24,540 bases of DNA from a virus, in the IMG/VR virus record IMGVR_UViG_3300018046_000112, positions 1 through 24,540 of that record; one strand, written 5' to 3'. Below are positions 887 to 22,823 of this stretch, piece by piece. The number at the start of each line of letters is the position of its first letter. The first letter of the stretch is position 1. The position numbers and the translations under genes are program-made. The notes under the pieces were generated by a model. The model ran no database searches. It had not been told where the DNA came from and was given only the letters and a program-made list of their open reading frames with translations.

Positions 887-1303
887 TTAAACCGGAAGCG
901 CAATATCTGCAAGATAGAAATCAACCACTCCGTTTATTATAAACCCCGCCACAACGCCTTTAACAGAATATTGTATGCCGGAGGGATAGCCGGGACATGC
1001 AACCGTATATATCTTGTCTTGTGGCAATATCTGTATATTGTTCGGTATATACATCTCTCCTGTAGGATAAATCAGATCTCCGGTATCTTTAAATCCTGTG
1101 GTTTTTCCCGACCATTGTATACGGACTTTTATGTCTTCATAAACCATTTCATATCCGGATATAGCGCTCCCATAGACCGGATTATTGAAAATATCTCTCG
1201 AAATTGTCGTAAAAACAGTATTGCTAGATGCATCATGAGAAGCTACCGAGTAGTCGGGCCTGCGATATATATCCACAATATCTGTAAAAATTACCGAAAT
1301 CAT
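887..1303 (-). CDS. putative head-closure (stopper) protein
   Basis: A 138-aa beta-rich protein with no catalytic motif. It lies between the adaptor/glutaredoxin pair and the gp10-like gene, the usual place of the head-closure (stopper) protein that seals the connector. It has glycine/proline turns and alternating hydrophobics (KVRIQW, DLIYPTGEMYIP, KIYTVACPGYPSG). That is compatible with the small beta-barrel of stopper proteins but is not proof. The ATG overlaps the stop of the glutaredoxin gene by four bases, so the two genes are probably translated together. The function is inferred from context. Confidence 0.45.
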   Translation of the reverse strand: MISVIFTDIVDIYRRPDYSVASHDASSNTVFTTISRDIFNNPVYGSAISGYEMVYEDIKVRIQWSGKTTGFKDTGDLIYPTGEMYIPNNIQILPQDKIYTVACPGYPSGIQYSVKGVVAGFIINGVVDFYLADIALPV

Positions 1304-1530
1304 AAATTATTCAATAAAGATTCTATTTTTGGCTTGTTAAATCCTATCACAAACTCTCCGTCTTTCTCGAATATCGGCACCACTGTTTGTCCCGTCTTTT
1401 CAAAAATTACTTCTGCCTTTTCTCTATTTTCGGAGATATCAACTTCTTCAAAATCAATTTTCTTTTCTTTAAGAAAATCTTTGAGCATTAAACAGAAATG
1501 ACAGGTTTTCGTTGAATAAACTTTTATCAT
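1300..1530 (-). CDS. glutaredoxin-like thiol-disulfide protein
   Basis: A 76-aa protein with a compact glutaredoxin/NrdH-like fold. The first strand MIKVYST is followed by the redox site CHFC (Cys10 and Cys13). The cis-proline motif TVVPIF is near residues 49-54, and the C-terminal helix is KIESLLNNL. In this family the CxxC pair transfers electrons to protein disulfides or to ribonucleotide reductase. Full length for the family, so it looks intact. It sits inside the connector operon with ATGA overlaps on both sides (adaptor before, closure protein after) and so is probably made together with structural proteins. No reductase gene is nearby, and the partner is unknown. A role in virion protein folding or disulfide control is only a guess. 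Confidence 0.85.
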   Translation of the reverse strand: MIKVYSTKTCHFCLMLKDFLKEKKIDFEEVDISENREKAEVIFEKTGQTVVPIFEKDGEFVIGFNKPKIESLLNNL

Positions 1531-2943: not shown

Positions 2944-3246
2944 TCAAGACTTAAAGTCAAATTCTGTATCTATAATGTTATTTACTTCATTTGACCCGTT
3001 TTCTAGCTCTTTTTCCTGCTCGGAATCGAATTTCAAGAGAAGTGTCTCAAATTCTCCCATATGGGTTTTTTCTTCTTTCGCCACATCTAAGAGAATCCTT
3101 TTAAGAAGTTTGTTTTCCGTCATATCAGCCATTTGCTCATAAAGGCTTATAGCATCTAATTCGGCCGTGATACTAATGCGAAGGATTCCCTTGGTTATAT
3201 TATTTTTATCTATTTTATTTATATCTATAGGTGATTTTGCCAACAT
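2944..3246 (-). CDS. encapsulin-type ferritin-like protein (ferroxidase)
   Basis: A 100-aa protein closely resembling the ferritin-like domain fused to the N-terminus of Pyrococcus furiosus encapsulin, from memory of that sequence. The shared pattern is AELDAI.LYEQMA (residues 28-40), then KILLDVA-EEK-H-GEF-like sequence (here 49-66) and a following LLL.. DxEQ segment. Family members oxidise and store Fe(II) as annular assemblies inside encapsulin shells. The di-iron ligands of the R. rubrum family member, Glu32/Glu62/His65, correspond here to Glu29, Glu59 and His62 with identical spacing, so the site looks intact. The C-terminal 25 residues are acidic and probably disordered, a possible cargo-loading tail. 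It stands alone between the glycosyltransferase and the plus-strand RNA unit. Confidence 0.85.
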   Translation of the reverse strand: MLAKSPIDINKIDKNNITKGILRISITAELDAISLYEQMADMTENKLLKRILLDVAKEEKTHMGEFETLLLKFDSEQEKELENGSNEVNNIIDTEFDFKS

Positions 3247-3275: not shown

Positions 3276-3334
3276 CCATGATTATTTTCATGGCAACATT
3301 CTCCCGCCACTTAAGAGGCGGGGAATTCTTGCCA
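3276..3334. repeat. pair of adjacent inverted repeats (REP/IS200-like palindrome)
   Basis: Two hairpins lie between the glycosyltransferase stop and the ferritin-like start. CCATGA/TCATGG occupies 3276-3293. A larger imperfect palindrome occupies 3291-3334: two 18-base arms, 14 of 18 positions paired, beginning TGGCAA and ending TTGCCA with a CCCGCC/GGCGGG core. No T-run follows on either strand, so it is not a plain terminator. The GC-rich core in an AT-rich context resembles REP or IS200/IS605 end palindromes, but no transposase is present. Confidence 0.5.
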
Positions 3335-3340: not shown

Positions 3341-4546
3341 TTAAAAGTATTTGTTTAATTTATCCGCCAATATGTTCATGGCTGTTTCCCAAGTAAAATT
3401 ATCTCTGATAAATTGAGCCGATTTCCTGCCTTTTTTTCTTACTTCATCCTGATGAAGATACGCATATCTCATTTTATCGACCAGATCGTCTAAATTAGGA
3501 TTAGCCCAATCTCCGCAGGGTTCTTTATAAACGAGTTTTGAGAAGTTTTCTGCAGATATCATTGTGTGCTCTATTTTCCATCCTAAGTCGTCCGTTATGT
3601 ATTCGCTTATGCCTCCCCAGTCGGTCACGATAACGGGAATTCCAGTGGACATAAATTCAAAAGGCACCAGAGAGAATCCCTCCCCCAGCCAAGGGAACAC
3701 CCCGCAATCTATCCTATTATAGACATCTCTCGCCATTTCCCCTTGGTCATTATTTGTTTCCATAATCAATTCTATTCTCCCGTTATGAAAATCGGGGTCT
3801 TCTTTTGTATTAAAAGGAAATATGGAGTTTGATGTTTTTATTATTAATCTTACGTCTTTTTTTTTCGGGAATGCCAGCTTAAATGCTTGTATCAGAATGT
3901 CTGTTCCTTTTCTCATTGTAAGAAAACCGGCCTGACCGAAAGTGAAGAATTCGTTATTCCTTTCGACAACAGGGAACTTCTCCGATTCAACCCCCCAGAT
4001 AATCTTTTCTATAGGGACTCTTACTCCGCTATCTTTCATCATTTGAATATTCTGGTCTGACAAGGTAAAAAGAGAGTCCATATAATTTATTCTGCTTACC
4101 CATGATTTCGGTATCTGCGTTGTTTCAAAGGGAACGATGGCAATCTTTTTATAGAACACGCTATCAAACCATTCATGCTTAGGCTGTTCATGATAGATAG
4201 CGGGCATTCTATTATCGACTTCTTTGATAAAACTGTTCAGTTCAGCGACTTTCATTCCGTTTCCTATCCAATGAGGATGATAGCCGATCTTATCCATATA
4301 ATAAGCTATATTCCTTGTGCAGGTTCCAAACCCGCTGGAATTGTCCGCATTCCCCCATAAAACAAAATCTCTATTTTTCCAGAATTCAGGGTTATATTCC
4401 AATTCGGGCTTTTCAAATTCAATATGATTGGTAAGGCTTATTTTCAACGCCTTTAATAAAGGAACGTCTATCTCGGAATTTGTTTTATAATATTCATTAT
4501 CAAAATATATGCCACTGTACTTAGGGTGTTTTATTATTGCTTTCAT
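3341..4546 (-). CDS. glycosyltransferase family 4-like (GT-B fold)
   Basis: A 401-aa protein with the two-domain GT-B layout of retaining family-4 enzymes, which move a sugar from a nucleotide-sugar donor to an acceptor. The N-terminal half includes the glycine-rich GNADNSSGFGTCTRNIAYYM (residues 65-84). The C-terminal donor domain has the RKGTDILIQAF strand-helix (212-222), the catalytic EX7E motif EGFSLVPFE (Glu289 and Glu297), and TGIPVIVTDWGG (301-312). Residues 1-45 look like an extra small beta domain. The gene follows the capsid gene, with its own sigma70 promoter (4761-4789) and a structured 200-nt leader ending in a terminator just before the ATG, so its expression may be attenuated. 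The acceptor is unknown; virion glycosylation or host surface change are both possible. Confidence 0.85.
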   Translation of the reverse strand: MKAIIKHPKYSGIYFDNEYYKTNSEIDVPLLKALKISLTNHIEFEKPELEYNPEFWKNRDFVLWGNADNSSGFGTCTRNIAYYMDKIGYHPHWIGNGMKVAELNSFIKEVDNRMPAIYHEQPKHEWFDSVFYKKIAIVPFETTQIPKSWVSRINYMDSLFTLSDQNIQMMKDSGVRVPIEKIIWGVESEKFPVVERNNEFFTFGQAGFLTMRKGTDILIQAFKLAFPKKKDVRLIIKTSNSIFPFNTKEDPDFHNGRIELIMETNNDQGEMARDVYNRIDCGVFPWLGEGFSLVPFEFMSTGIPVIVTDWGGISEYITDDLGWKIEHTMISAENFSKLVYKEPCGDWANPNLDDLVDKMRYAYLHQDEVRKKGRKSAQFIRDNFTWETAMNILADKLNKYF

Positions 4547-4871: not shown

Positions 4872-4885
4872 TATAACCCCTAAGA

Positions 4886-5026
4886 CTAGTTATTAGGATC
4901 TTGTACATTCTGAAGTACGCCATTCCAAGGTTCAGCTTTTACGGCCAAACAGGTATACTCGTTAATGTAAAAACGAACCGAATCAAAAATCTTAGCAAGT
5001 TCAGTGCGTCCAACGGGGACCAAATC
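4886..5026 (-). CDS. major capsid protein exon 4 (residues 303-348)
   Basis: Begins DLVPVGRTELAKIF and ends VQDPNN followed by TAG. The start is set by the P10 pairing GATT/AATC and the terminal G of intron 3. The final strand (TCLAVKAEPWNGVLQNV) resembles the C-terminus of HK97-fold capsid proteins. Confidence 0.88.
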   Translation of the reverse strand, partial: DLVPVGRTELAKIFDSVRFYINEYTCLAVKAEPWNGVLQNVQDPNN

Positions 5027-7961
5027 CTTTTATGTTATTCATACAATTTCTTGTATGTTCGGACTATATCTTTACTTATAGACAATTTTTCTTAATTATT
5101 TCTTCTGCTTCTTCTTGATTGGTATGTTCCCATATTCTCAATATTTTATATCCATTTGCCTTTAATAAAATATTAACTCTTTATTTTTTTGTTTCTTATT
5201 TAGTTTTTTGCCACAGTATCTACAATTCATTTTATATTTGTCTATAAGTATTCTACATAAAGTCTCTACGGATTCTATTGTATCATATTTACGGTAAAAT
5301 ACAATAGTCTTTCCTCGGTATTCCCTGTACGGGTTCACCGATATAGTAGAATTTTAAATGACCGATTATGTCCAGCCATTTCACATCCTTGATTATCTAA
5401 TCTAAGGAAAAAAATGTCAGATACTGAGTTACCAGCTGCGCCGGATGAACCAGAGAAGTTATAAGGATACGGAAGCGCGGCATTAATGAAGTACTTTTTA
5501 ATTGTTACTTAGAATTTTATCAACACAATACTCTATATTCTCATTTATTTCATGTTCCCAAAATCTAAAAACTTTTATTCCTTTGTTCGTCATGCTTTTA
5601 TTTTTTTTGATATCTTTATTCTTAATTTCTATATAATATCCTTTTCCATGTATTTCACATTCATGATAAAAACAACCATCACACTCTATTACAGAATTAA
5701 TATTAGGAATCCAAAAATCTACATTGCATATATTTTCTAAAGGAAACCATCGAAAATAATCTTTATTCTCAATTAATCCTCTTTTGATAAATTCATTATT
5801 CATCTTCTCTTCGATAGATGTTCTTTTAAACTTTTCTCTAGGATGATTAATCGCTTATATTCTTATTCTCTCAGCATGTTCTTTGCGTTTTTCTAAAGAA
5901 GGAAACATTTTTGCTTTTCCTTTTGTAGCATTAGATATTTTTATTCCTCTTTCGGGATTTTTTATAGATTCTTTATACTTTTTACTATTAAGTATTACTA
6001 ATCTGTGCTTTTCTGCTATCCCTTCTTTAAACATGCCATTATTATTGCTTATCTTTTTCTTTGATTCTTCTGTATGTTTCTTTCCTAAATGAGAATTATT
6101 CATCTTTATTCTGGTTTGTTCTGATGCTTTCTTTCCTAAATTAGCTAATCTTAATTTATTTATGGTTACCATTGAGGGATGTTTCCCCTTATTCCAAGGG
6201 ATTTGCCCTTTAATGAATCTACCATTATTTATTATATTTTTATTTTTCATGTTGATAAAATTTAGATTAAACATTTCTGTTTAATTCATACAATTTCTTG
6301 TATGCCCAGACTATATCTTCACCCTATTTCTAGGGGCAATACATTTAGTCGTTACGGATTCTCTTTCGAGTCTTTCCTCGGTATTGTCCACTTGCGTGGG
6401 TTTTCACCGATATAGTATTGTTTTTGTTTCCAACATTACAGTTGGAAGGAGACTACTTCTTGTTAATCTCCAACTATTGGCACTGGACCAAGAGGTGAGT
6501 TATAAGCCACTATATTATCGCCTGCCGTAAACTTTCCCGTCGATTCATCTGGTCGCACATAATATCTGCCCGCTGCGCCAACGATTTCGTTTATAATGGC
6601 TTGCACCCCGAAGGAGCAGCCTATCATATCCAACTTATTTCCGCCCTGAAGCCTGATAAGTTTAATCATTTTGTCGAGAGCAGGTATTGATACTCCGCTA
6701 GCCGTCAATGGGTTGCCATTGAAATCGATTACATTTGTAACCAACTGAACGGTTTCTCCGCTAAATGCTATCGGGTTTATTGCTGGATCCGCATACAAGA
6801 TTGCAAATTCTTCTCCTTGAATTATCCTGCGTAAAGCCGCTTCTGCTATTTCAGCTTCTAAATCAGTGTAGCTTCTGCCTCCGGCAATAGCCGGTCCGGT
6901 TATATTGCCGACCGTTCCAAGAAACTTATAAGGGGCTGTTGCCTGTTTATAAGTAGGATCTTGTTCGGGAGGCAAGGCTCCATCCATTTTGTCATTAAGG
7001 TTATTATTTCCTTAAAGTTTGGACTATCGTTTGTATTCTTTATAAGAATACTACTCTTGCTTAGTCTCTGCACCTGCACTATTACATAACGAGTTAAAAG
7101 AATATTCTCTAATATTTTTTTGTTTAGATTTTTTAAAATCTTTTTTCTTTAAAGATAATAAAAGATAAAGTTTTTCCCTAACTTCTATTTCTTTTTCTGA
7201 TAATTTTAATCTTTTATTATTGCTGTCATTATTATTTCTTTTTCTTCCTTGAAACCTGATTGCTATTGCTGCCTGATCTTTCTTTAATTTCAAAAAAGGA
7301 TAAACCTTCTTTAAAAATTCTAATGCTTTTAAATTGTCTGTCTGCCATACATATATCCAATTAGTTGTTCCAGTTATAAAAGATTTTTTATTTTTTAGAT
7401 ATACGACTCCTCCAAAGTTTCCATACAACCAATCAATTATTCTTCCATCTTTTTGTGAAATTGCCACAATAAGAGAATAATTTGGGCTAACCATGTATCC
7501 TCGTGGAGACAACCTATTTATTCTTATACGTCCCTCTCCATCAAGTATTCCTGCCGCATAAGAGTATTTAATAGATTTATTTTGTTTCATATGTTTAGTG
7601 ATATGTAATATGCTTGGTAAGGGTTACCAATTTCAGGCTTCCCTTTATCAAAGAGTATTTTACTACGCCAATGGTTTAAAACTCTGTTGAGTTTAGCGTA
7701 GAAGATGTTAATTAATCCTAGCGGTCCTTGCGAAAGCGTATCAAGCGATGTTCGAATGTTCCAAAGATGAGCTGTTCCTTCTCCTTTTATTCTGTTCATT
7801 CTGTCTCTTATTGGCGTTAGACGGTCAGAGAGTACTACTAAAGCCGACTCTAAATCCTGTCTTGCCAATAAGGTATTTCCATAAGGCAACAGATAACTTT
7901 GGTCAATCTGCTTCTCATACACTTCTAATGCGCGATCCAAACTGTTTATTCCATCATTCAT
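4886..7961 (-). CDS. major capsid protein, HK97 fold, four exons: join(7961..7695, 6984..6466, 5493..5374, 5026..4886)
   Basis: Joining four exons gives a 348-aa protein (89+173+40+46) ending in TAG. It reads like an HK97-fold major capsid protein. It has an N-arm (residues 1-48), the GEGTAHLWNIRTSLD start of the main fold, then DGALPPEQDPTY leading into a long helix (GRSYTDLEAEIAEAALRRII) that fits the spine helix. Next come beta strands and a C-terminal region (DLVPVGRTELAKIFDSVRFY). Each exon break falls between codons, after Ala89, Asp262 and Ala302. All three have a P1 helix ending in a U-G pair at the 5' splice site and a P10 pairing that sets the 3' site. The gene follows the protease-scaffold gene and ends at a strong terminator, as expected for the most abundant virion protein. 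No Shine-Dalgarno sequence is visible. Confidence 0.9.
5027..5373 (-). ncRNA. group I intron 3 in the capsid gene, with decayed endonuclease
   Basis: A 347-nt intron. P1 is exon AAATGGCT with guide GGTCATTT, closing with U-G. P10 is AATC with the exon 4 start GATT. P7 is GACT with AGTC in the typical AGATATAGTCC context (5061-5072). P8 is a 12-bp stem (ACTTATAGACAA with TTGTCTATAAGT) whose loop holds the endonuclease remnant. P9 is CATACAA-GAAA-TTGTATG with a GNRA tetraloop. The intron ends in G. It shares the blocks TACTATATCGGTGAA and AATACCGAGGAAAGACT and the P9 hairpin with intron 2, so the two are close relatives. Confidence 0.88.
5076..5230 (-). pseudogene. remnant of an intron homing endonuclease
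   Basis: The first part (ATG at 5230) encodes MNCRYCGKKLNKKQK, a CxxC zinc-finger-like start, and then stops. In another frame the last part reads NGYKILRIWEHTNQEEAEEIIKK, ending at TAA 5078-5076. That matches the C-terminal helix of the EDxHD nuclease in intron 2 (NKGIKVFRFWEHEINENIE). The catalytic centre is missing, so an internal deletion and a frameshift have destroyed the gene. The end overlaps the P8 strand that the ribozyme needs, which may explain why this piece is kept. Confidence 0.75.
5374..5493 (-). CDS. major capsid protein exon 3 (residues 263-302)
   Basis: A 40-codon exon with no start or stop of its own, beginning YFINAALPYPYN and ending NQGCEMA. Its 5' edge is set by the P10 pairing TACTTC/GAAGTA and its 3' edge by P1 of intron 3 (exon AAATGGCT with guide GGTCATTT). 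Too short to be called as a gene by itself. Confidence 0.88.
5494..6465 (-). ncRNA. group I intron 2 in the capsid gene, with endonuclease gene
   Basis: A 972-nt intron. P1 is exon GGAGAT with guide GTCTCC (closing U-G). P10 is GAAGTA with exon 3 TACTTC, immediately beside the guide. P7 is ACGACTA/ATAGTC near 6308-6350. P8 is a short hairpin CCCTA-GAAA-TAGGG. P9 is CATACAA-GAAA-TTGTATG. The endonuclease ORF follows P9, and its stop lies four bases before the 3' splice site, so the gene sits downstream of the catalytic core, unlike in introns 1 and 3. The intron ends in G. Confidence 0.9.
5498..6274 (-). pseudogene. intron 2 homing endonuclease (NUMOD3 + EDxHD/Vsr-like) with an in-frame TAA
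   Basis: One reading frame of 259 codons, interrupted only by a TAA at 5857-5855. The first 139 residues have NUMOD3-type DNA-binding repeats (IPWNKGKHPS, NLGKKASEQTRIKM, HLGKKHTEESKKKI). After the stop, 17 in-frame codons (AINHPREKFKRTSIEEK) lead into the nuclease part (VDFWIPNINSVIECDGCFYHE, then IKVFRFWEH). This is the Vsr-like EDxHD fold of endonucleases such as I-Bth0305I. The probable catalytic Glu (TSIE) lies in the 17-codon bridge, before the internal ATG at 5803. Restarting there would therefore make a nuclease without that residue. It is most likely a recent nonsense pseudogene; read-through, or two functional pieces, are alternatives. Confidence 0.8.
6466..6984 (-). CDS. major capsid protein exon 2 (residues 90-262)
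   Basis: Starts DGALPPEQ and ends PVPIVGD. The 3' splice site of intron 1 is fixed by P10: exon GATGG pairs with CCATT beside the guide. The exon end GGAGAT pairs with the guide GTCTCC of intron 2. Taken as a separate gene it would start at an ATG at 6987 that is partly intron, and it would stop at a TAA inside intron 2. Confidence 0.9.
6985..7694 (-). ncRNA. group I intron 1 in the capsid gene, with LAGLIDADG gene
   Basis: A 710-nt intron. P1 is exon CTACGCT with guide GGCGTAG (closing U-G), with P2 as AAACTC/GAGTTT in the P1 loop. P10 is CCATT with the exon 2 start GATGG, adjoining the guide. P7 is GACTA/TAGTC. P8 is GTATTC/GAATAC. P9 is TTAAGG/CCTTAA. The intron ends in G at 6985. The endonuclease ORF occupies the loop between the P4-P6 side and P7, and its last codons run into P7/P8. 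The core differs from introns 2 and 3, so it has a separate origin. Confidence 0.88.
7051..7590 (-). CDS. LAGLIDADG homing endonuclease of intron 1
   Basis: A 179-aa endonuclease with one LAGLIDADG-type motif, YAAGILDGEGRI (residues 11-22), so it probably acts as a homodimer. The acidic Asp/Glu at the end of that helix would bind catalytic metal. The rest fits the family: a beta-saddle (SLIVAISQKDGRIIDWLYGNFGG, WIYVWQTDN), then helices (LEFLKKVYPFLKLKKDQAAIAI). It cleaves intronless alleles so that the intron is copied into them. Its ATG overlaps the TGA that ends the unspliced exon 1 frame (ATGA at 7590-7587), which would couple translation to unspliced mRNA. The final codons and TAG overlap the ribozyme P7/P8 strands. 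Confidence 0.85.
   Translation of the reverse strand: MKQNKSIKYSYAAGILDGEGRIRINRLSPRGYMVSPNYSLIVAISQKDGRIIDWLYGNFGGVVYLKNKKSFITGTTNWIYVWQTDNLKALEFLKKVYPFLKLKKDQAAIAIRFQGRKRNNNDSNNKRLKLSEKEIEVREKLYLLLSLKKKDFKKSKQKNIREYSFNSLCNSAGAETKQE
7695..7961 (-). CDS. major capsid protein exon 1 (residues 1-89)
   Basis: Ends ...INIFYA with the codon GCT at the splice site. The exon bases CTACGCT pair with the intron guide GGCGTAG, leaving the last U opposite G. Without splicing, the frame reads 35 codons into the intron and stops at 7587. It contains TLLARQDLE at residues 30-38, which also occurs in the 364-aa head protein. Confidence 0.88.
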
Positions 7962-7970
7962 ATCTGTGTA

Positions 7971-8045
7971 TTAAATTGTCAATGTGCTTTTAAACACAAT
8001 ACAAATTAATTCTAATACTTTTTGGAGTGTTGCAACTTTACTCAT
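7971..8045 (-). CDS. possible 24-aa leader peptide before the capsid gene
   Basis: A short ORF starting MSKVATLQKVLELICIV and ending nine bases before the capsid ATG. The length and position suit a leader peptide or translational coupling. There is no ribosome binding site and no recognisable family. It may be chance in this AT-rich gap. Confidence 0.2.
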   Translation of the reverse strand: MSKVATLQKVLELICIVFKSTLTI

Positions 8046-8134
8046 AAATGAAAAACATTTTTATATGTTAAACAAGTATGTAGCCGAGTCTACCGACCTC
8101 TTCATAAAGAAACTCACTCCTGCTTCGATTCAAT

Positions 8135-8160
8135 CTCTGCGTCCGTAAAAGGACGCAGAG
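8135..8160 (-). terminator. 10-bp hairpin after the protease-scaffold gene
   Basis: CTCTGCGTCC pairs perfectly with GGACGCAGAG across a six-base loop, eight bases past the scaffold stop. No T-run follows on the minus strand (ATTGAATC), so it may be a partial terminator or an mRNA-stabilising or processing hairpin. Such hairpins often set the scaffold-to-capsid expression ratio. Confidence 0.5.
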
Positions 8161-8167
8161 TTAAATT

Positions 8168-10144
8168 TTACAATATTTGGGAAATGTTTTCACGTCTTGC
8201 CTCTGAAGAAAAGTTGTTTTTATACATTTCTTTAAAATCCTTTTCTTCCGAAACCGATTTATGCAATTCCTCGGCTGTTACGTCTGAAACCAATTTTAAT
8301 CTTGGCCCGCCATCTCTTGACATTACATAAGGGGTTCCGTTTATTACAGACCTCTTTAATCCGGGCTCACCCATATATTCTTTTATGCTTTTCTGTATTT
8401 TCTGGTCGTTTCTGATGAATTCCATAAATTGATTTCTTAACCCGATTATTCTGTTTCCGCTCTCTTCTTGGGATTTTTCAAGCTTTTCAAGAGCCTCCCC
8501 AACCAAGAACGCAAACTTATCAATATTGGCTACCGCGACTTTCGGATTGCTTTTCATTTGCTTTGACATTGCTTTCACCCTTTCCGCGGAAGGAATTTTA
8601 TATTCACTTGTATCCGCTGATTCGGAACTTCTGTCTTTTTCATCTCCAACCATTCTGCTTCCCGCAGGGACTGAATACGATTCGGAACTGGAAACCTCTT
8701 TCCTTGTTTTTGTTTCATTGGGAAATTCCTGATCTAAAGCTTCGGTGCTGTCTGGTTTTTCATTTCCGCCTCTTTCTCTCTTTGATTGGGCATGATCTCC
8801 GCCTATTGCTTTATACTCCGATTCGGAATATGTGTCGGAATCTCTTGATGTTTTATTATCCGCTTTCTTTGCGGAGCTTTCAGATTCAGAACTGTCTTCC
8901 GAAGAAGAAGATTTGAACGCTTTCTTTGTCTTGGACTCCGATGGGAATTCCTGATCCAATGCTTCGGTGCTTTCGGAGGATTGCTTGCCGCTTCTTTCCC
9001 TTGGGGCTGAATTGTCTCCATTAGCATAAGTTTCTTCTTGTCCTTCTCTTTGCTTTTCTTTCTTCTCATCAGGAATCTCTTGATCAAGCGCGTCTGAATC
9101 TAAAGAAGTATAAGACAGAGTTTTGGTGATATTGCTTAAAGCGTCTATCGCCTTGTTGATTCCTTCCACAATTGCTTTCTTTGTTGAAGAGCTTTCGCTG
9201 TCTGAATAATTACTTTCGGGAAATTTCTCTTTTGCGGTCTTTGTTTTCTCAGAAGATTTGCTTTCAGACGATTCCATCGCTTTCTTTGTTGGAGAGCTTT
9301 CGCTGTCTGAAGGTTCTGATTCAGACACTGAATCTTTGTCAGAACTCATTTCTTTTTCTTTGTCGGATGCTTCAGAAGAGCTGCTTGAGCTTTCTTCTTT
9401 TGGATCCGACTCTTTTTTATTAAATCCAAACATATTATTATTATTTAATTTTACATTATATCCTTGTTCATTATTATCCTCGACCCTTTGCTTTTCACTT
9501 TGCCATGCATTTTTAGGTATGGACTTTTCAAACGTCTGCAGGTAATCCATTTGCGGATTCTCAAACAAGAATTCATTATAACAGGATTTATATATATCCT
9601 CTTCCAAAGGAGTTCCCGTATAATTCTTAGCTATGAGCCATGAATCATAATTGGATGGTCTTGGCGTTACCGAAACTTCCCTCAGCATCACATCATAAAA
9701 TGTTTTTATCATCTTTCCTTTGGATTCAACTAATTCTCTGATTGCATCCTTCACTTCCCCTCCAACCGACAATCCCAATTGGGCTCCGGCCTTTAAAGAA
9801 TCATAGAGAATCATTGCGGCCGGCTTTGTCTTATCCAGCATGGCCTTTATTCTTAATTGGTTCCTATCATCAATATGAGCTTCGCAGACCCTGCCTATAA
9901 TAGCATCATCGGTTTTTTGGTGGGCTACCCTTAAAGGAACAGACTGTTCGTTTATAATCTTTGCCATTCTTATTAATGCGGGTTTTGCCATTCTTTCCTG
10001 GTCATGGTCTACATTAGTTGAAGAAGCCACCCCTTCAATAGCAAATTCGCTTCCCGATTCCGAAGGTATCGCTTTTTCTATATAAAATATAAAAGGAAAG
10101 CTTCCTTCCGCTCTTGATAATATTTGTGTTTTTTTAATATCCAT
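8168..10144 (-). CDS. prohead protease fused to a long acidic scaffold
   Basis: A 658-aa protein in two parts. Residues about 15-170 look like a phage prohead protease: SSTNVDHDQERM (42-52), a candidate catalytic His75 in RVAHQ, Ser126 in LGLSVGGEV, and the closing strand LREVSVTPRP (154-163). These proteases cut scaffold and capsid N-arms during maturation. Residues about 245-520 are low-complexity Ser/Glu/Asp/Lys, as in scaffolds. They contain three ALDQE(I/F)P repeats (352, 395 and 469) and three SES-S-KKA repeats (279, 314 and 418). The end (520-658) is helical with a coiled-coil-like segment, probably the capsid-binding part. The gene directly precedes the capsid gene. The three ALDQE repeats could be processing sites. 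Confidence 0.8.
   Translation of the reverse strand: MDIKKTQILSRAEGSFPFIFYIEKAIPSESGSEFAIEGVASSTNVDHDQERMAKPALIRMAKIINEQSVPLRVAHQKTDDAIIGRVCEAHIDDRNQLRIKAMLDKTKPAAMILYDSLKAGAQLGLSVGGEVKDAIRELVESKGKMIKTFYDVMLREVSVTPRPSNYDSWLIAKNYTGTPLEEDIYKSCYNEFLFENPQMDYLQTFEKSIPKNAWQSEKQRVEDNNEQGYNVKLNNNNMFGFNKKESDPKEESSSSSSEASDKEKEMSSDKDSVSESEPSDSESSPTKKAMESSESKSSEKTKTAKEKFPESNYSDSESSSTKKAIVEGINKAIDALSNITKTLSYTSLDSDALDQEIPDEKKEKQREGQEETYANGDNSAPRERSGKQSSESTEALDQEFPSESKTKKAFKSSSSEDSSESESSAKKADNKTSRDSDTYSESEYKAIGGDHAQSKRERGGNEKPDSTEALDQEFPNETKTRKEVSSSESYSVPAGSRMVGDEKDRSSESADTSEYKIPSAERVKAMSKQMKSNPKVAVANIDKFAFLVGEALEKLEKSQEESGNRIIGLRNQFMEFIRNDQKIQKSIKEYMGEPGLKRSVINGTPYVMSRDGGPRLKLVSDVTAEELHKSVSEEKDFKEMYKNNFSSEARRENISQIL
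9173..9313 (-). repeat. internal duplication in the scaffold coding region
   Basis: A 33-base stretch (plus strand GCTTTCTTTGTTG..) occurs at about 9174-9206 and again at about 9280-9312 with one mismatch. It encodes the SDSESS(S/P)TKKA units. This points to expansion of the scaffold by unequal exchange or slippage. Confidence 0.6.
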
Positions 10145-10286
10145 TTTGTATTAATACATTTATAATGTTAAATATTTCTTCTTCTTTTATTATACCAAGA
10201 CTGACCAATATTTTTATCACTTTCTGCTGCCATTGATAGTCTCCCTGCTCAACCTGATTCTTTATTTCTTCAATTAATCCTGCCAT
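10134..10286 (-). CDS. 50-aa protein between the head protein and the scaffold
   Basis: A small gene starting MAGLIEEIKNQVEQGDYQWQ and ending VLIQNGY. It overlaps the end of the 364-aa head gene by 17 bases and the start of the scaffold gene by 11 bases. Tight overlaps on both sides and a clean amphipathic helical sequence support a real gene. No family is recognised. It could be a small head assembly factor. Translation would be coupled at both ends. Confidence 0.65.
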   Translation of the reverse strand: MAGLIEEIKNQVEQGDYQWQQKVIKILVSLGIIKEEEIFNIINVLIQNGY

Positions 10287-11364
10287 TATTTAACGCTTCT
10301 TTGAATGTTTTATAATATTTTGACGGTTTGTTGCGTTGGTCTATCGGCCTTTCGACCACAGAATTTTTTATATCCAAAGGTCCATTGCCTCTTTCGTGAA
10401 GACATATTTTATCCCTTGCCATCTCTAATATTTTTCTCGACTCTCCCGAAGTAAGCCCAAATTCTTCAAGTAATATCTTTTCCCTGTAATTCTCATCTTC
10501 TACCTCATCCAGAAGCTGAGAAGCTCTAGCAAAAGTATCGGGGTTTATTATGCTTTTTGTTTTTGTCGAAGATGAATCTCCTTCTAAATCTTGCCTCGCT
10601 AAAAGTGTTTTTGGAACGGCTCCATTATATTCCGCATCAACTTCTTTCATTCTCTCGCTTCTGTCCGCGCTTTCTCTATTGTTTCTGTCCGCTCCTTCCG
10701 AGCTATGTCCTGAAATATCAGAATTAGAAAATATTGTTCCCAGCATTGAATTAACAAGAGACCTCTGTTCACTATCGGTTAAATTATATTCATCACTTTG
10801 TGATTTCTTTGCTTCATCTCTGTTCTCCGGCTTTATAGAACCTTTATATCCTAACTTTGCCTGGCAAATCGCAAAACACAAACCCTTTGGGTTTTGGCTT
10901 AAGCAAGAAGCCACACAACTCCTCCATTTGCCCGTATGAACATCGTCTTTGTATATTTCCATTGCCGAATCAAAAGATTTTATTACCATATCATCAAATG
11001 CAATATCTTGCATTTTAATCATCTTATTATAAGCTTCCGATCCGAGAGCATTAGTGCAAACAGCAAAAGCATTCTTTGCTCCGCCTTTTCTTTTTATATC
11101 TTGGACGCACCTATCGAATTTTTCCGAATGAGAGTCTAGTGATTTATTTGCGTATATGGCTCTTTCTTGATCTTGAGCCGCTTTTTTAGAAGGGTGTTCT
11201 CCCAAAACTTTTCCTTTATGAGAATATAGCATCCACTTTCCTTTTTTGTTTCTTATTATTTTTCCTATCTCAGAATTCTCGCTTCCGTATTCATCTCTTT
11301 TTTCATCGCAAGATTTGCTGAAATTCTCTTCAAAATATTTCTGAAATATTGTTTTGTTCTTCAT
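10270..11364 (-). CDS. 364-aa head-module protein with cysteine-rich centre
   Basis: A protein upstream of the protease-scaffold gene. Residues 40-74 have a GKWMLYSHKGKVLG..(K)AAQDQERAI pattern seen in phage proteins near the portal. Residues 83-107 have FDRCVQDIKRKGGAKNAFAVC, another motif common in such proteins. Cysteines cluster at 150-167 (SCVASCLSQ, CFAIC), a possible metal or disulfide unit. The centre is Ser/Asp/Glu/Arg-rich. At 253-261 it carries TLLARQDLE, identical to residues 30-38 of the capsid N-arm but encoded with different codons at seven of nine positions. This suggests a shared binding or protease site. The function is unknown; an internal head or minor scaffold protein is likely. 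Confidence 0.6.
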   Translation of the reverse strand: MKNKTIFQKYFEENFSKSCDEKRDEYGSENSEIGKIIRNKKGKWMLYSHKGKVLGEHPSKKAAQDQERAIYANKSLDSHSEKFDRCVQDIKRKGGAKNAFAVCTNALGSEAYNKMIKMQDIAFDDMVIKSFDSAMEIYKDDVHTGKWRSCVASCLSQNPKGLCFAICQAKLGYKGSIKPENRDEAKKSQSDEYNLTDSEQRSLVNSMLGTIFSNSDISGHSSEGADRNNRESADRSERMKEVDAEYNGAVPKTLLARQDLEGDSSSTKTKSIINPDTFARASQLLDEVEDENYREKILLEEFGLTSGESRKILEMARDKICLHERGNGPLDIKNSVVERPIDQRNKPSKYYKTFKEALNNGRIN

Positions 11365-11417
11365 AAAAGATTTTTAAATAATTGTAAACTTTTTAAAATA
11401 TATAAATTATGCAACTG

Positions 11418-11433
11418 TCCTATATTCATTATA
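11418..11433 (-). promoter_or_regulatory. candidate late promoter -10 element before the 364-aa head gene
   Basis: Minus-strand TATAATGAATATAGGA, 69 bases before the ATG at 11364. It differs by two bases from the 14-base core shared by the portal and adaptor elements. No -35 consensus is seen at the right distance. It lies downstream of the terminator at 11470-11497, so it would restart transcription. Confidence 0.4.
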
Positions 11434-11469
11434 CAATATTTATTATTTTTTTTATGATTGAATATAAAA

Positions 11470-11497
11470 ATCCCGCCCTTTTTTGAGAGCGGGATTT
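11470..11497 (-). terminator. intrinsic terminator after the 24-aa basic peptide
   Basis: On the minus strand AAATCCCGC and GCGGGATTT pair around TCTCAAAAAAGG and are followed by a T-run (TTTTTATATT). It is placed five bases after the TAG of the 24-aa gene. This is a typical rho-independent terminator. Confidence 0.85.
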
Positions 11498-11501
11498 GTT
11501 G

Positions 11502-11576
11502 CTATTTCTTGCCTTTTTTGTTGGCAGCAGCTTTCTTGGCCGGAGATTTTTTAGGAGCAACTTTTTTAGTTGGCAT
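11502..11576 (-). CDS. 24-aa lysine/alanine-rich basic peptide
   Basis: A tiny gene reading MPTKKVAPKKSPAKKAAANK then KGKK: 11 Lys and 6 Ala in 24 residues, like the tail of histone H1 or HU-type proteins. It lies between the portal stop and a strong terminator, with a candidate promoter (11605-11632) just upstream. It could therefore be made from its own short mRNA. Non-random composition, defined signals and a clean start and stop support it as real. A role in DNA condensation or packaging is a guess. Confidence 0.65.
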   Translation of the reverse strand: MPTKKVAPKKSPAKKAAANKKGKK

Positions 11577-11604
11577 CTTATTTATATTTAATTGTACTGT
11601 TTAT

Positions 11605-11632
11605 ATTTTACTTATTTTTATTTTTTTGTCAA
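11605..11632 (-). promoter_or_regulatory. possible promoter for the 24-aa peptide
   Basis: Minus-strand TTGACA (11632-11627), a 16-base spacer and TAAAAT (11610-11605). The predicted start is about 22 bases before the ATG. The -35 box lies inside the last codons of the portal gene, a Lys-rich AT-rich end, so chance cannot be excluded. Confidence 0.4.
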
Positions 11633-13771
11633 TTTCTTTTTTCGTTGCCCTGTCAGATCCATAAATAAATTATATAGATAAGGAATGGGCTTCAAAGAAT
11701 TAGCATAAGAATCTTTTGTGGATTCCCATCTGTTCTCATTATTTATAAACTGAAAATCATAGGCATATAATCTGTGGGTGTCCGGAGTTAAGATGACTTG
11801 GTCAGAACGCCTGTCACCTATTTTATATTTCTTCTCCGCCAGCCATATGTTCGCTAAATCATGTATAGCAAGCTCATATTTATTTGGATGATTTTTCATG
11901 TCTTCAATGAGAATTTGATCTTTAAGCGAGCGCCCATCCTTGAAATCTGAAACCAGATAATAAGGGAATTTTCTTGATCCGCCAAATTTTAACTTCCACT
12001 TTTGAGAATCATAAGCGGAATCCATATTCTGATAATGCTTAAATTCTTCTCTCACATAATCGGTGGGCAGTTCTCGCAATATATCCACTTCCGACATGCG
12101 AATTACAGGAATCACATTCAATCCCTTTTTATAAAGCATATTGGAAACTCTTTCTTCTTCTTTCTGAGAATCCAAATCCACGGCAATCGGAGTTTTTATA
12201 ACTTTGCCCTCTCCTGTAAGAATATTATAATAAATAAAGGGCTGACCATATCCCATGTCTGACACAAAACAGTTAAATCCGTCTTCGGTGAACACCGACT
12301 TATGAAATTCTTTTTCCTCTTTATTGTCTTCTTCTTGTTTTATGTCTTCATTATTTTTAATATCTATCGGATTTCCTTTTCCGTCTACTTGCTGTTGGTT
12401 GTTGTTACTATCTATTATGATGGGTTGATATCCCAAGTTTGTCAGCTTCAATGGCTTATCCGCCCATTCCCCGAAAGGTCTCTTGCCCATTTCTTCTCTT
12501 ATTTCATTTATAGTCATTATCCCTGTTTTTGTCGCTAAATCATAAAGAGCCGTTCTTTCTTTAACATCCACCACGTCAACATTGGCCCAGTCAAATTCCA
12601 AGTCTCTGTATCCGAATTGTCCCCAAATAATATACACATTGAATATTTCTTTTAAAAGATGAAGCAGGGAGTTATATCCTTTTTCGTCTGACGACTGCTT
12701 TTGTGTTTTTGCGGTATTGAAATTTATATCCCCGGTTATATTCAAATCTGCGGCGGTGAGTCCGAATTCTGCTGTTGCTAAACGAGCCATTAGCTCGAAA
12801 TAATCCATGAACTGCATATCTCTCTGGTTTATGTCTTTCAGATTTGTGATCTTTACTTCCTTCTCTCCGGACATAATAGCGGGACGATGGAATCTTCCTT
12901 CCATTTCCTGATAAAAATATTCTTTAAATCCGTCCAGACTCCTCTGATCCATGGTTTGCATTAACTGTATAACCAGTGGAGGGAATGCTCCGTCTTGGAA
13001 ATATGTGCTGTTAAAATTATCAGCATTAAGAATATTGTTTATTACGCCAATGATAGCCTCTATAGCTCCAAAGCCATATCCCCACCCGCCCATATCTCCG
13101 CGAGGGTGCTGATGGAAGAATATCATATCTCTCTTAGGCCAAGCGGCGACAACATCTCCGGTCTGTCCTCCCCTGTACGGATTTTGATTTAGAACTTGAA
13201 TATATGACACGGGGAGAAATTTTGTTCTCCCGTCTTCTCCTTTTATTAGGATAGGGATATCTTGGTTTCCGTGATCGTCCGCCACAACAGATATAGTGGC
13301 GGAATCTACTACAAATAATTCCGCGGGCATCCCATCGTGATAACGAGTTATTTCCACGGCAGCTGAGTCGAGAGCCAGTAAATCTTCCAATAATTTATCC
13401 AAAAAAGTCCTAAATGTGTCTCCTTGTCTGTTTGGTTTTTCAAAAAAATCAGAGAGTTCTTTTATTAAAACTGGGTCTACTTTTTTCAAAGGATCTCTCG
13501 ATTTGATAATCCACGGGGTTTTGCTTATTTTGTTTTTAAGAGAGTCTATGCAGATTCTTATTATATAGACATTGCGAGAGGCTCTGCGAAGAACGTCATA
13601 AGATATTCTGCCCGGCTTGCTTAATCCCTTATCTAATGCGTATGGGGCTCGCTGGTTTTTGCTATATGTAAAAGCGCGGCTGCGATTAACTTCTGACTTG
13701 TATATTACATCGTTGATATTCTCTATTTTTATGCTATCATTAGAACTCTTATTTTTATTCCTTCTGCTCAT
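11618..13771 (-). CDS. portal protein with a C-terminal kinase-like domain
   Basis: A 717-aa protein. Residues about 40-450 are the portal ring subunit: RISYDVLRRASRNVYIIRICID early, a central GGWGYGFGAIEAIIGVINN stem-like helix region, then TAKTQKQSSDEKGY and a WANVDVVD..ALYDLATKTGIMTINEIREEMG end, as in known portals. A polar linker (460-489) joins about 228 extra residues with the signature order of a protein-kinase/aminoglycoside-kinase fold. That order is: a VIK lysine (Lys526), a helix with EEER (538-541), hinge YYLVSDFKDGRSL (606-616), catalytic-loop-like IGDRRSDQVIL (652-661, Asp653), and YDFQF (Asp672). The usual Asn of the catalytic loop is Gln658 and DFG is DFQ, so the activity is uncertain. 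The portal starts head assembly and is the DNA channel. Confidence 0.85.
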   Translation of the reverse strand: MSRRNKNKSSNDSIKIENINDVIYKSEVNRSRAFTYSKNQRAPYALDKGLSKPGRISYDVLRRASRNVYIIRICIDSLKNKISKTPWIIKSRDPLKKVDPVLIKELSDFFEKPNRQGDTFRTFLDKLLEDLLALDSAAVEITRYHDGMPAELFVVDSATISVVADDHGNQDIPILIKGEDGRTKFLPVSYIQVLNQNPYRGGQTGDVVAAWPKRDMIFFHQHPRGDMGGWGYGFGAIEAIIGVINNILNADNFNSTYFQDGAFPPLVIQLMQTMDQRSLDGFKEYFYQEMEGRFHRPAIMSGEKEVKITNLKDINQRDMQFMDYFELMARLATAEFGLTAADLNITGDINFNTAKTQKQSSDEKGYNSLLHLLKEIFNVYIIWGQFGYRDLEFDWANVDVVDVKERTALYDLATKTGIMTINEIREEMGKRPFGEWADKPLKLTNLGYQPIIIDSNNNQQQVDGKGNPIDIKNNEDIKQEEDNKEEKEFHKSVFTEDGFNCFVSDMGYGQPFIYYNILTGEGKVIKTPIAVDLDSQKEEERVSNMLYKKGLNVIPVIRMSEVDILRELPTDYVREEFKHYQNMDSAYDSQKWKLKFGGSRKFPYYLVSDFKDGRSLKDQILIEDMKNHPNKYELAIHDLANIWLAEKKYKIGDRRSDQVILTPDTHRLYAYDFQFINNENRWESTKDSYANSLKPIPYLYNLFMDLTGQRKKKLTKK

Positions 13772-13798
13772 TATTATTAAAATTTAGTTTACAAACCA

Positions 13799-13814
13799 TC
13801 CTATATATATTATA
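13799..13814 (-). promoter_or_regulatory. candidate late promoter -10 element before the portal gene
   Basis: Minus-strand TATAATATATATAGGA, 43 bases from the TATAAT to the portal ATG at 13771. Its first 14 bases are identical to those before the adaptor gene. The spacer region upstream has no clear -35 box. Transcription from it would begin the head operon, directly downstream of the sigma-like gene. Confidence 0.45.
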
Positions 13815-13815
13815 G

Positions 13816-14109
13816 TCATTCTTCTATTTTTTTTATCTCTGTAAATATTTTGAACATTTTATTTTTAAGACTATACAATCCCTGGACATTTTTATATCCC
13901 ATTAATTTGTATATTTCTCTTATCTTAAATCCCAGCAGAAGAAATATAAATAATTTAAGCTGATTTTCATTGAAATTATTTATAAGATTTTCCACGAGAA
14001 TCTTATTTTCAAGAGCATCTTCTATATTACTGCTCTCGTCAATGATATCCCCGATATCTTTAAAAGGTATTTCTTCTACATTGACTCTTTTCCAGTAGAT
14101 ATTTTTCAT
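13816..14109 (-). CDS. sigma region 4-like helix-turn-helix protein
   Basis: A 97-aa protein. The ATG at 14109 is preferred because it overlaps the previous TGA as ATGA; a longer frame starting at 14148 would overlap that gene by 43 bases. The C-terminal half has the layout of sigma70 region 4 or a related HTH: NENQLKLFIFLLLGFKIREIYKLMGYKNVQGLYSLKNKM. The first helix of the HTH has 'IREIYKLMGY' where family members have 'sxxEIAxxLGx'. Such a protein could redirect RNA polymerase to late promoters or be a small DNA-binding packaging subunit. Its place directly before the portal and its TATAAT element fits a late-transcription role, but this is inference. Confidence 0.5.
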   Translation of the reverse strand: MKNIYWKRVNVEEIPFKDIGDIIDESSNIEDALENKILVENLINNFNENQLKLFIFLLLGFKIREIYKLMGYKNVQGLYSLKNKMFKIFTEIKKIEE

Positions 14110-14660
14110 TGTGTTTTCTTTCCCAGCATTCTCTGCCCTTGCGGCCATAATTTTTCCAATTCACCGCACCAATTAAGGAACCAAGACAAAAACTCCCCTG
14201 TTTCGGGATTATTTGTTACGCCCAGAGCAAACCCCTCCAATATAAATATCGTAACTCCCATCAAAGCATCGGAATAATCCAGAACTCTTGTGTCGAATCT
14301 TCCCGTTAATTTTTCTCTCTCTTTTTTTATATCGTTTCTTTGTTTCTCTTCGTTAAAAATACCTATTGTAAATTTATAGAAATCGGAAATATCACAGGCT
14401 TTTAATCCTTTTTCTTTGCATTCAATCTCCCACATTCTTCCTATGTCTCGCAAAACCCTTACGGATGCCTTAAGAACCGAAGGAGATGGTATGTATTTCA
14501 TTCCTGGTTGGCCCGGAAGCTTTACCGCGTTTTTTGTTTGGACAAGAGTATCCACAACACTGTCTTTATGCCTCAGTTTTTTCTGAATAAGCAATTCATC
14601 TGCCAGCTTCTTGGCTTCTCTAAGCTGTTTTATAGGCGCATGTTTTTTCTTTGCTGACAT
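14106..14660 (-). CDS. unknown 184-aa helical protein
   Basis: Basic N-terminus (MSAKKKHAPIKQLREAKKLADELLIQKK), then a mostly helical body (VLKASVRVLRDIGRMWEIECKEKG) and an aromatic C-terminus (FLSWFLNWCGELEKLWPQG). No known domain is recognised. Its position between the terminase region and the portal, and its basic helical start, would allow a small-terminase or regulatory role, without direct support. The start is preceded at exactly 12 bases by the conserved hairpin motif (14673-14702). The end overlaps the HTH gene by ATGA. Confidence 0.6.
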   Translation of the reverse strand: MSAKKKHAPIKQLREAKKLADELLIQKKLRHKDSVVDTLVQTKNAVKLPGQPGMKYIPSPSVLKASVRVLRDIGRMWEIECKEKGLKACDISDFYKFTIGIFNEEKQRNDIKKEREKLTGRFDTRVLDYSDALMGVTIFILEGFALGVTNNPETGEFLSWFLNWCGELEKLWPQGQRMLGKKTQ

Positions 14661-14672
14661 TTTAAATATGAC

Positions 14673-14702
14673 AATAATACTCCCTCTTTAGAGGGTTCAA
14701 TT
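14673..14702 (-). promoter_or_regulatory. conserved 30-base hairpin motif, copy A
   Basis: A minus-strand element beginning AATTGAAC, with stem CCCTCT/AGAGGG, ending AGTATTATT. Its end is 12 bases before the ATG at 14660. Two other copies (20558-20587 and 21641-21670) have the same length, the same 12-base distance to ATG and compensatory stem changes. TTGAAC and TATTAT also stand 15 bases apart, so it could double as a promoter. Confidence 0.6.
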
Positions 14703-14713
14703 ATTTATTATAT

Positions 14714-15232
14714 TTATTTGAAAGACAGCCCCGTTCCTGTGCCACCCGTAATCATGGCGGAATTAGTTCCTGTGGGGTCTTCTGTTCCTATTTTATTCGG
14801 ATCTCCAATCAATGCTCTGACTCCGGGAGGAACAGGCCTGATAGCTTTCTTGGGGCCAATACTTTCTTGTTTTTTATTGAAATTATTTATCATGGATTCC
14901 GCAAATATCTTGTCTTCATTAGACATGTTCTCTATCTTTTTTATATTCATTTCATTAAAAAACTCTTTATTCATAACCACTTGTCCCTCGGGCTGTTTTT
15001 GGTTTTCTTCCGCTGAAGGGAAAAAGTCGGATGAAATAGAAGGCATTGCCACGTAAGGATTACTATTGACATTAACTTTATTTATCGAGCTTACAACACC
15101 TAAATTAGAGAAATCGCAAATCTTGCATTTCTTTACTTTTATAGTAATAATTTCTAACTCATCTACGACATGGAATAATCCACATATATCGCATTTGGAA
15201 GCTACGCTATTTTTTTTCTTTTCCTTTTCCAT
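14714..15232 (-). CDS. unknown protein with N-terminal zinc ribbon
   Basis: A 172-aa protein with two CxxC pairs, CDIC (residues 14-17) and CKIC (36-39), in a zinc-ribbon arrangement. It is followed by a polar, partly helical region (NEDKIFAESMINNFNKKQ) and a Gly/Thr-rich tail (TGGTGTGLSF). Zinc ribbons usually bind nucleic acid or protein. No family is recognised. It overlaps the end of the upstream gene by 26 bases. Confidence 0.6.
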   Translation of the reverse strand: MEKEKKKNSVASKCDICGLFHVVDELEIITIKVKKCKICDFSNLGVVSSINKVNVNSNPYVAMPSISSDFFPSAEENQKQPEGQVVMNKEFFNEMNIKKIENMSNEDKIFAESMINNFNKKQESIGPKKAIRPVPPGVRALIGDPNKIGTEDPTGTNSAMITGGTGTGLSFK

Positions 15233-19654: not shown

Positions 19655-20545
19655 TTAATTATTTCTCCAGTCTATTATTTCTTGGCATTTTACATTACAT
19701 TGGCAATCTTCCTTGCAAGCATCCTGCAATGTCCATCTTATTGATTTCTTTGGATCATTAAAAGGATTTTTATAAGTTCCATTACTGCTATTGTCTATCT
19801 CTCCCCATTTTTTTTCTATATACTTTTTATTCTTTTCAAATGCTATATTTTTGACCATTCCTCCATTTTGAACTTGTGTTCTTGAACCAAAATGATAATA
19901 AGAAGCCGGCGGATAATTTATCGCACTTATTCCTGCTAATTTTATGCGAAAATGGAAATCACGGTCTTCGTGATAGGCGGGACGGAAACCTTCATCAAAT
20001 TCTCCCACTTCTCTGAAGATTTCTCTGTTAATCACAAAGTTTGAGAAGTCCGGACATTCCGCTTCAGGGACATCTTTCTTTAAGTTTGAGTCATAAATCA
20101 GTATATCTTGCGGATTAGGAAGCTCTCCTTGTATATTATGTCCCGTTACCATAAACCCTATTTTTCCTTTTTCTTTCTCCTCTCTTAACATTCTTTCCAT
20201 CATATTATCAATAGTGTCCGGAGACATTAAAATATCATTATTAATTACGAAGCAATAATCTATCCCATTACCAAAATGTCTGCGTATTCCATAATTCCAA
20301 CAGGCCGCCAAAGGGATTCTTTCTTCAAATCTCCTAAGCCAAACACGCTTTTTCATATTTATGCGAGTGCCTTGCACCATCTTGGACGCTTCCCTAAAAG
20401 TATGATTATTGTCTTCAGATTTATTATCTATAATTAAAATCTTTAAAGAATATTTATCAGATTTTAAGCTTTCAATACATGGAAGAGTGTACTCTTCCCA
20501 AAGACCGACAACTGGGATCACAATCCCGATATTTTTATTATTCAT
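19655..20545 (-). CDS. glycosyltransferase family 2-like (GT-A fold)
   Basis: A 296-aa enzyme. Features of family 2: NIGIVIPVVGLWEEYTLPCI start, LKILIIDNKSEDN (34-46), the NYGIRRHFG helix, metal-binding INNDI (101-105), and the acceptor-side HEDRDFHFRIKLAG near residues 217-230. The C-terminus has an added cysteine cluster (DACKEDCQCNVKC) that may bind metal. It transfers a sugar from an activated donor; the target is unknown. The start is set 12 bases after hairpin motif copy B. It lies between another GT2 gene and the terminase. Confidence 0.85.
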   Translation of the reverse strand: MNNKNIGIVIPVVGLWEEYTLPCIESLKSDKYSLKILIIDNKSEDNNHTFREASKMVQGTRINMKKRVWLRRFEERIPLAACWNYGIRRHFGNGIDYCFVINNDILMSPDTIDNMMERMLREEKEKGKIGFMVTGHNIQGELPNPQDILIYDSNLKKDVPEAECPDFSNFVINREIFREVGEFDEGFRPAYHEDRDFHFRIKLAGISAINYPPASYYHFGSRTQVQNGGMVKNIAFEKNKKYIEKKWGEIDNSSNGTYKNPFNDPKKSIRWTLQDACKEDCQCNVKCQEIIDWRNN

Positions 20546-20557
20546 AGTTGACAGAAA

Positions 20558-20587
20558 AATAATACTCTCCCTTGCAAGAGTCCAATT
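20558..20587 (-). promoter_or_regulatory. conserved 30-base hairpin motif, copy B
   Basis: Minus-strand AATTGGAC start, stem CTCTT/GGGAG, end AGTATTATT, then 12 bases to the ATG at 20545. It matches copy A at 23 of 30 positions, including a C-G to T-A switch at one stem pair. The upstream gene ends one base before it. Confidence 0.6.
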
Positions 20588-20588
20588 C

Positions 20589-21272: not shown

Positions 21273-21274
21273 AT

Positions 21275-21628
21275 TTATACTTGCAATTCTCTTATAGATA
21301 AAAATGTTGGGCAAACTTTTGAGCAAGAACAAGAATTGTATAAGTCGTTCTCAAATAAAAAATCAATATTATTATTTTTGCAATATTCAGCCTTATTCAC
21401 ATCTAAAGGAGAATCGATAACCTTAATTTCTTTTATCCATTCCAGATCTATCCCTATGGCGCCAAGCTGTTGCCTCTTGAATATTAAGCTTTCTTCGTTA
21501 TCCATGTTTTCATCCAGACCTGAAATTATGTAAATTTCATTCCCTCCGTTATAAAGACATCTTATCATTTCTCTAAATTGTTTCGCGGCGGAAATTATGG
21601 TTCCATCCAAATCAAAACCAAATTTCAT
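21275..21628 (-). CDS. small HAD-type phosphatase-like protein
   Basis: A 117-aa protein with the HAD motifs in order: FDLDGT (residues 5-10, nucleophile Asp6 and Asp8), YIISGL (33-38) as motif II, Lys in NKAEYCKNN as motif III, and FENDLYN as motif IV. It is short and lacks a cap, like small sugar- or nucleotide-phosphate phosphatases. The N-terminus is complete. Next to glycosyltransferases it may process a sugar-phosphate. The ATG is 12 bases after hairpin motif copy C. Confidence 0.75.
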   Translation of the reverse strand: MKFGFDLDGTIISAAKQFREMIRCLYNGGNEIYIISGLDENMDNEESLIFKRQQLGAIGIDLEWIKEIKVIDSPLDVNKAEYCKNNNIDFLFENDLYNSCSCSKVCPTFLSIRELQV

Positions 21629-21640
21629 ATAATTAAATTT

Positions 21641-21670: not shown

Positions 21671-21674
21671 ATTT

Positions 21675-22822: not shown

Positions 22823-22823
22823 A

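Follow-up and report, generated by a model that had tools for sequence, protein, structure and literature searches.

Encapsulins are considered to descend from phage capsids that were domesticated and gained a ferritin-like cargo. A gene for a ferritin-like protein inside the head module of a tailed phage raises the question of whether its product belongs to such a capsid-cargo pair, is packaged in the phage head in some other way, or acts only within the cell. We examined such a gene in a 24.5-kb viral fragment (IMG/VR record IMGVR_UViG_3300018046_000112, positions 1 to 24,540), which is called the window below.

Results

A free-standing EncFtn with an intact predicted ferroxidase site

The open reading frame at 2944-3246 on the minus strand starts with ATG and encodes 100 amino acids. 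Pfam assigned the product to Rubrerythrin (1.8e-8) and to the EncFtn-like family PF22277 (28.1 bits against a cut-off of 27), while NCBIfam EncB_fam (6e-19) and TIGR04535 for encapsulin-associated ferritin-like proteins (7e-15) matched it under the curated cut-off of the former and the cut-off of the latter. The best PDB sequence was the EncFtn domain of Pyrococcus furiosus (5n5e, 6e-20), followed by the P. furiosus encapsulin fusion (2e0z, 4e-19) and then by EncC and NE0167. The AlphaFold2 monomer (mean pLDDT 89) retrieved 5n5e first with Foldseek against PDB, then 7s8t, 5da5 and 3k6c, all of which are EncFtn structures; only weak matches were found in BFVD. The monomer model, the Foldseek matches and PF22277 agree on the two-helix ferritin-like fold of EncFtn, and the resemblance to the ferritin-like domain of the P. 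furiosus encapsulin, proposed in the initial annotation, holds by sequence and by predicted fold.

The ferroxidase residues of R. rubrum EncFtn are Glu32, Tyr39, Glu62 and His65 (PMC5012862), which correspond to E29, Y36, E59 and H62 of the window protein with a constant offset of +3. The three ligands that had been named from the sequence (Glu29, Glu59 and His62) do stand at the spacing of encapsulated ferritins, and Tyr36 joins them. These residues are invariant across 44 aligned proteins comprising the window protein and cellular ones, and across 24 aligned viral EncFtns. The window motif D54xxxE58E59KTH62 equals DxxxEExA(T)H, the motif of the archaeal fusion-FLP (PMC11202242). The entry-site residues Glu31 and Glu34 of R. 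rubrum have A28 and D31 as their counterparts. It was thus confirmed that 2944-3246 encodes an EncFtn-type protein with an intact predicted ferroxidase site.

Among proteins of known structure, the P. furiosus EncFtn shares 47% identity with the window protein in structural alignment, as well as the two-helix fold, the ferroxidase residues and the DxxxEExA(T)H motif, but it is fused to its own encapsulin shell, whereas the window protein stands alone and encapsulin is absent. The s-FLPs such as Nitrosomonas NE0167 (3k6c), which are described as decamer-forming (PMC11202242), are similar to it in length (about 95-100 amino acids), in the EncFtn fold and in having no targeting peptide; NE0167 differs in being bacterial and in sharing only 26% identity in structural alignment.

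Cellular relatives and the encapsulin question

Sixty cellular proteins share 48-66% identity with the window protein, in most cases over near full length. The closest relatives are free-standing EncFtns of 90-119 amino acids from archaea and candidate-phyla bacteria, including Lokiarchaeota, Woesearchaeota, Methanosarcina and ANME-1, and not the ordinary rubrerythrins that had been set beforehand as the outcome speaking against an EncFtn assignment. They resemble the window protein in length, in N-terminus and in having no encapsulin, and differ in that their genes are chromosomal, near redox genes and outside any phage head module. For several of them, the genes downstream begin with sequences that resemble peroxiredoxin, superoxide dismutase and ferritin.

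No encapsulin gene adjoins any of the 60 cellular homologues, and the targeting-peptide consensus found no match in them. PF04454 was detected in none of the 38 genomes of cellular relatives, while three control genomes were positive; many of the 38 are incomplete metagenome-assembled genomes, whose gaps hardly account for this result. PF04454 was also absent from the window record, itself a fragment, and from 26 viral EncFtn records. The cargo-peptide consensus L(F)xV(I)xxL(I) was absent from the last 25 residues of the window protein, which include the short acidic tail singled out for this search in the initial annotation. Thus neither mark of a Family 1 encapsulin cargo was found, that is, a targeting peptide or shell fusion, or a shell gene in the operon or genome. 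Because encapsulin and targeting peptide are both absent, we assign the close family to a free-standing branch of EncFtn. The encapsulin-type cargo relation put forward in the initial annotation is not supported for the window protein or for its relatives.

In a tree of 120 domains, whose cellular set was picked by similarity to the window protein and which has few columns, the window EncFtn falls within the cellular free-standing clade (97/87), and most other phage copies fall outside it. This position supports a putative separate capture of the window gene, undated.

Gene neighbourhood in the window

The minus strand carries, in transcription order, genes for terminase, portal, a probable protease, capsid, glycosyltransferase, EncFtn and neck proteins. 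The terminase large subunit (17786-19627; phrog_38, 5e-62) is followed by a portal protein with a long C-terminal extension (11618-13771; PF04860, 9e-32; phrog_2662, 7e-44), which is similar to Herelleviridae-type portals. A 658-amino-acid head-module protein (8168-10144) without Pfam match is probably the prohead protease, judging from its position and N-terminal sequence, and carries a long low-complexity extension. Directly upstream of EncFtn lies a group-1 glycosyltransferase gene (3341-4546; PF13692, 6e-13), whose product also matches PF20706 'GT4-conflict', and a neck or head-tail adaptor gene (1527-2522; phrog_442, 1.6e-7) comes after EncFtn. The surrounding region is indeed a tailed-phage head module on the EncFtn strand, with phage genes of similar GC on both flanks. 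The capsid gene is part of this module, but it does not directly adjoin EncFtn as first described, since the glycosyltransferase gene intervenes. No minus-strand promoter or terminator was tied to a late-operon reading of EncFtn, which rests on gene order.

Several other features were observed in the window. A glutaredoxin gene (1300-1530, minus strand; PF00462, 4e-14) overlaps the neck genes and brings the redox genes of the structural module to two. An imperfect hairpin with 22-nt arms of 77% complementarity was found by repeat search between the glycosyltransferase and EncFtn genes (3291-3334); it has no second copy in the window and is reminiscent of IS200/IS605 ends. A candidate small RNA of about 200 nt on the plus strand (2600-2831) has a perfect TTGACA-N17-TATAAT at 2600-2628 a strong terminator at 2791-2828 and a fold z-score of -5.1, and Rfam gave nothing convincing for it. 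Two glycosyltransferase and two methyltransferase genes (19655-22837, minus strand) lie upstream of the terminase gene.

A search of IMG/VR with the window portal gave no match, so this phage appears to have no close sequenced kin in that database. The terminase shares only 22-37% identity with its Patescibacteria matches, too little to assign a host; an SLT lysozyme suggests that the host has peptidoglycan.

A split capsid gene

The major capsid protein gene (about 4880-7961, minus strand, with outer limits set by frame and position) has intron-like insertions with homing-endonuclease reading frames. The exon at 6463-6987 matched phrog_752 (5e-8), an ordinary phage head-protein family. The coding piece at 7587-7961 was assigned from reading frame and position, and the last exon (about 4890-5029) from position, frame and a weak alignment to the capsid C-terminus of contig L075 (E 0.26). 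The insertions number at least three and contain LAGLIDADG-like (7051-7590), NUMOD3 (5855-6274) and DUF559 (5498-5803) reading frames; two of them, at 6309-6417 and 5062-5348, have a group-I-like core (ACTATATCGGTGAA ... AAGATATAGTC) in common, and Rfam detected no group I intron on the capsid gene. An encapsulin shell would be a PF04454 capsid without other virion genes, whereas here portal and terminase genes are present. With PF04454 absent and the capsid in phrog_752, the idea of a transitional capsid-encapsulin system was rejected.

EncFtn genes in other phages

The single-sequence search of IMG/VR with the window EncFtn found no relative, and profile searches recovered 26 loci at first and about 80 later, of which 59 are non-redundant. 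The ferroxidase residues are kept, by spacing, in 57 of these 59. In three contigs the domain is fused to a PF06381 portal: L069, whose portal domain is just under cut-off (5.5e-8), L070 (8e-77) and L118 (8e-72), the last with a large terminase gene upstream. The L070 fusion is a single 885-amino-acid reading frame (5980-8637) of portal, EncFtn and topoisomerase IB (2e-26 for this C-terminal domain). Downstream of the fusion, both L070 and L118 have a MuF-like gene and next a DUF2213 gene, and a capsid gene (phrog_264) lies farther along in L070. The AlphaFold2 model of the L118 fusion, made from four sequences, had a pLDDT of 33 and was set aside.

EncFtn is joined to other partners as well. 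In L105 it is fused to the head protein DUF2213, downstream of a portal gene. L075 and L116 combine it with NUDIX and DUF6496 and have a phrog_752 capsid gene in the vicinity; in L075 the genes for the head protease and the capsid come within 3 kb downstream. Eggerthella phage LE2-3 (LE23_74), the one cultured phage in which the domain was found, has a 948-amino-acid reading frame containing EncFtn between annotated portal and capsid genes. In L147, EncFtn is fused to InPase, which has been described in polyvalent proteins that are packaged in virions (PMC5512222).

EncFtn lies within 15.5 kb of the capsid gene in 10 of 14 records with a capsid gene (expected 4.1, P about 5e-4), with this cut-off picked after the distances were known. 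In the phrog_752 (L075-type) capsid clade, EncFtn is sporadic, lying within 10 kb of the capsid gene in only 2 of 10 records, and is therefore an accessory gene there.

Capsid-targeting-like N-termini

The T4 internal proteins IPII and IPIII start with MKTYQEFIAE (NC_000866), and the capsid targeting sequence (CTS) of T4 internal proteins carries proteins into the head (PMC3012670). The CTS of IPI, IPII and IPIII, which are not ferritin-like, resembles the starts of many stand-alone phage EncFtns (MVNFKDYLTE, MSKFKDYITE, MKKTLRFDDFLNE, MKLKNYLNE and similar). A strict CTS-like motif occurred in 10 of 49 such EncFtns versus 1 of 795 reading frames from cellular loci, and with a looser form the counts were 18 of 49 versus 21 of 795; the motif was set post hoc and anchored on IPII and IPIII, so the Fisher P of the enrichment is descriptive. 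A cleaner test asked whether neighbouring proteins share the EncFtn N-terminus, with internal segments as controls. Sharing exceeded the internal-segment expectation in L078 (6 vs 0.14), L085 (5 vs 0.3), L083 (3 vs 0.2) and L066 (2 near-copies vs 0.2); the test was positive only in L066, L078/79, L083, L085 and L087/88 and gave nothing in the other loci.

In L066, the N-terminus MNPRKAFEQALAK is common to three adjacent genes (9633-10788), the middle one being EncFtn. In L137, about a dozen genes surround EncFtn (5309-14820), most of them starting with MKFKEYL- or MRFKxYL-like sequences; this run has the appearance of a cassette encoding proteins targeted to the head.

The window protein starts with MLAKSPIDINK, which matches its cellular homologues and is unlike the T4 sequence. 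It thus has no N-terminal CTS of the T4 internal-protein type, which the prohead protease cuts, and as a single domain it is not fused to any virion protein.

Discussion

We favor, with a probability of about 60%, the reading that the window protein is a ferroxidase of cellular origin, expressed late and possibly associated with the virion. The phage would have taken the gene from a cellular donor carrying the free-standing, non-encapsulin branch of EncFtn, and its position in the head module would imply expression with the late head genes. By family precedent, the protein may form a D5 decamer with di-iron sites at the subunit interfaces, and its presumed ferroxidase activity would oxidise Fe(II) with O2 or H2O2. 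Less free Fe(II) and peroxide during DNA packaging and assembly would spare the DNA and proteins of the phage some Fenton damage. It is known that EncFtn oxidises Fe(II) but stores no mineral itself, as iron storage needs a surrounding shell (PMC5012862).

We put at about even odds that part of the window EncFtn is inside the virion or attached to it, judging from the fusions and CTS-like N-termini of unrelated phages. This is an extrapolation from distant phages, because the window protein is itself neither tagged nor fused. Phage polyvalent proteins join portal or MuF to effector domains, and some phages likewise fuse EncFtn to portal, NUDIX or InPase, unlike the single-domain window protein. 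These phages lend indirect support to the idea that iron is handled within the virion or around it; the window protein has neither their portal or head fusions nor their CTS-like N-termini.

A different account, to which we give slightly less than an even chance, is that the window EncFtn is never packaged and works only inside the infected cell, as the product of an auxiliary metabolic gene against iron and peroxide toxicity, much as the free-standing forms of cells do. Its full-length similarity to these forms, the native N-terminus kept and its nesting inside the cellular clade are consistent with such a role, as are the peroxiredoxin-, superoxide dismutase- and ferritin-like genes after several cellular homologues and the glutaredoxin gene in the same phage module. 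Moreover, Dps and Mn-catalase in gut phages have been reported as oxidative-stress genes (PMC8008677). On the other hand, the gene lies between capsid and neck genes, and other phage lineages fuse the domain to virion proteins.

The remaining explanations are improbable in different degrees. Loading in the manner of encapsulin cargo, through a C-terminal peptide bound by the capsid, would make the virion an iron-storing compartment. The tail has no cargo-peptide consensus, the window has no encapsulin, its capsid belongs to a phage head family and a mature phage head is full of DNA, so we regard such loading as unlikely, despite the HK97 fold that relates phage capsids to encapsulins (PMC8346489) and the need of EncFtn for a shell to store iron (PMC5012862). 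Still less likely is a structural or neck component using the ferritin-like fold as a mere scaffold: the adjoining neck genes and the portal fusions of other phages would fit it, but a scaffold has no need of the ferroxidase residues kept in the window protein and in nearly all phage copies. Contamination or mis-assembly of a cellular gene into a viral contig would explain why the closest similarity is to cellular proteins, and is very improbable, given the same-strand phage genes of similar GC on both flanks and comparable cases across many phage contigs.

More broadly, several tailed-phage lineages may have independently recruited EncFtn into the virion head through fusion, through a targeting peptide or, in the case of the window, through a gene position within the head operon, which would make the capsid a DNA-containing iron-handling compartment analogous to the encapsulin. 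We offer this tentatively, with the odds somewhat against it. The catalogue of polyvalent proteins (PMC5512222) mentions no ferritin or rubrerythrin domain, nor does a review of jumbo phages, and no report of EncFtn in portals or virions, or of CTS-like phage EncFtns, was found in open PMC text. The EncFtn family itself has been described before; what seems to be new is that it is repeatedly fused to phage heads or tagged for them.

Finally, the portal fusions and head-targeting-like tags of distant phages suggest iron handling within the capsid in some viruses. With EncFtn in phage portals and head modules, capsid and ferroxidase meet on the viral side too, and both the management of iron and reactive oxygen in virions and a viral origin of the capsid-ferroxidase pairing are now testable. 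The free-standing branch in archaea and candidate-phyla bacteria, which has no encapsulin, bears on the role of EncFtn when it is not enclosed. If EncFtn is indeed recruited into heads, packaged DNA may be shielded from Fenton chemistry, or a ferroxidase may be delivered together with the genome.
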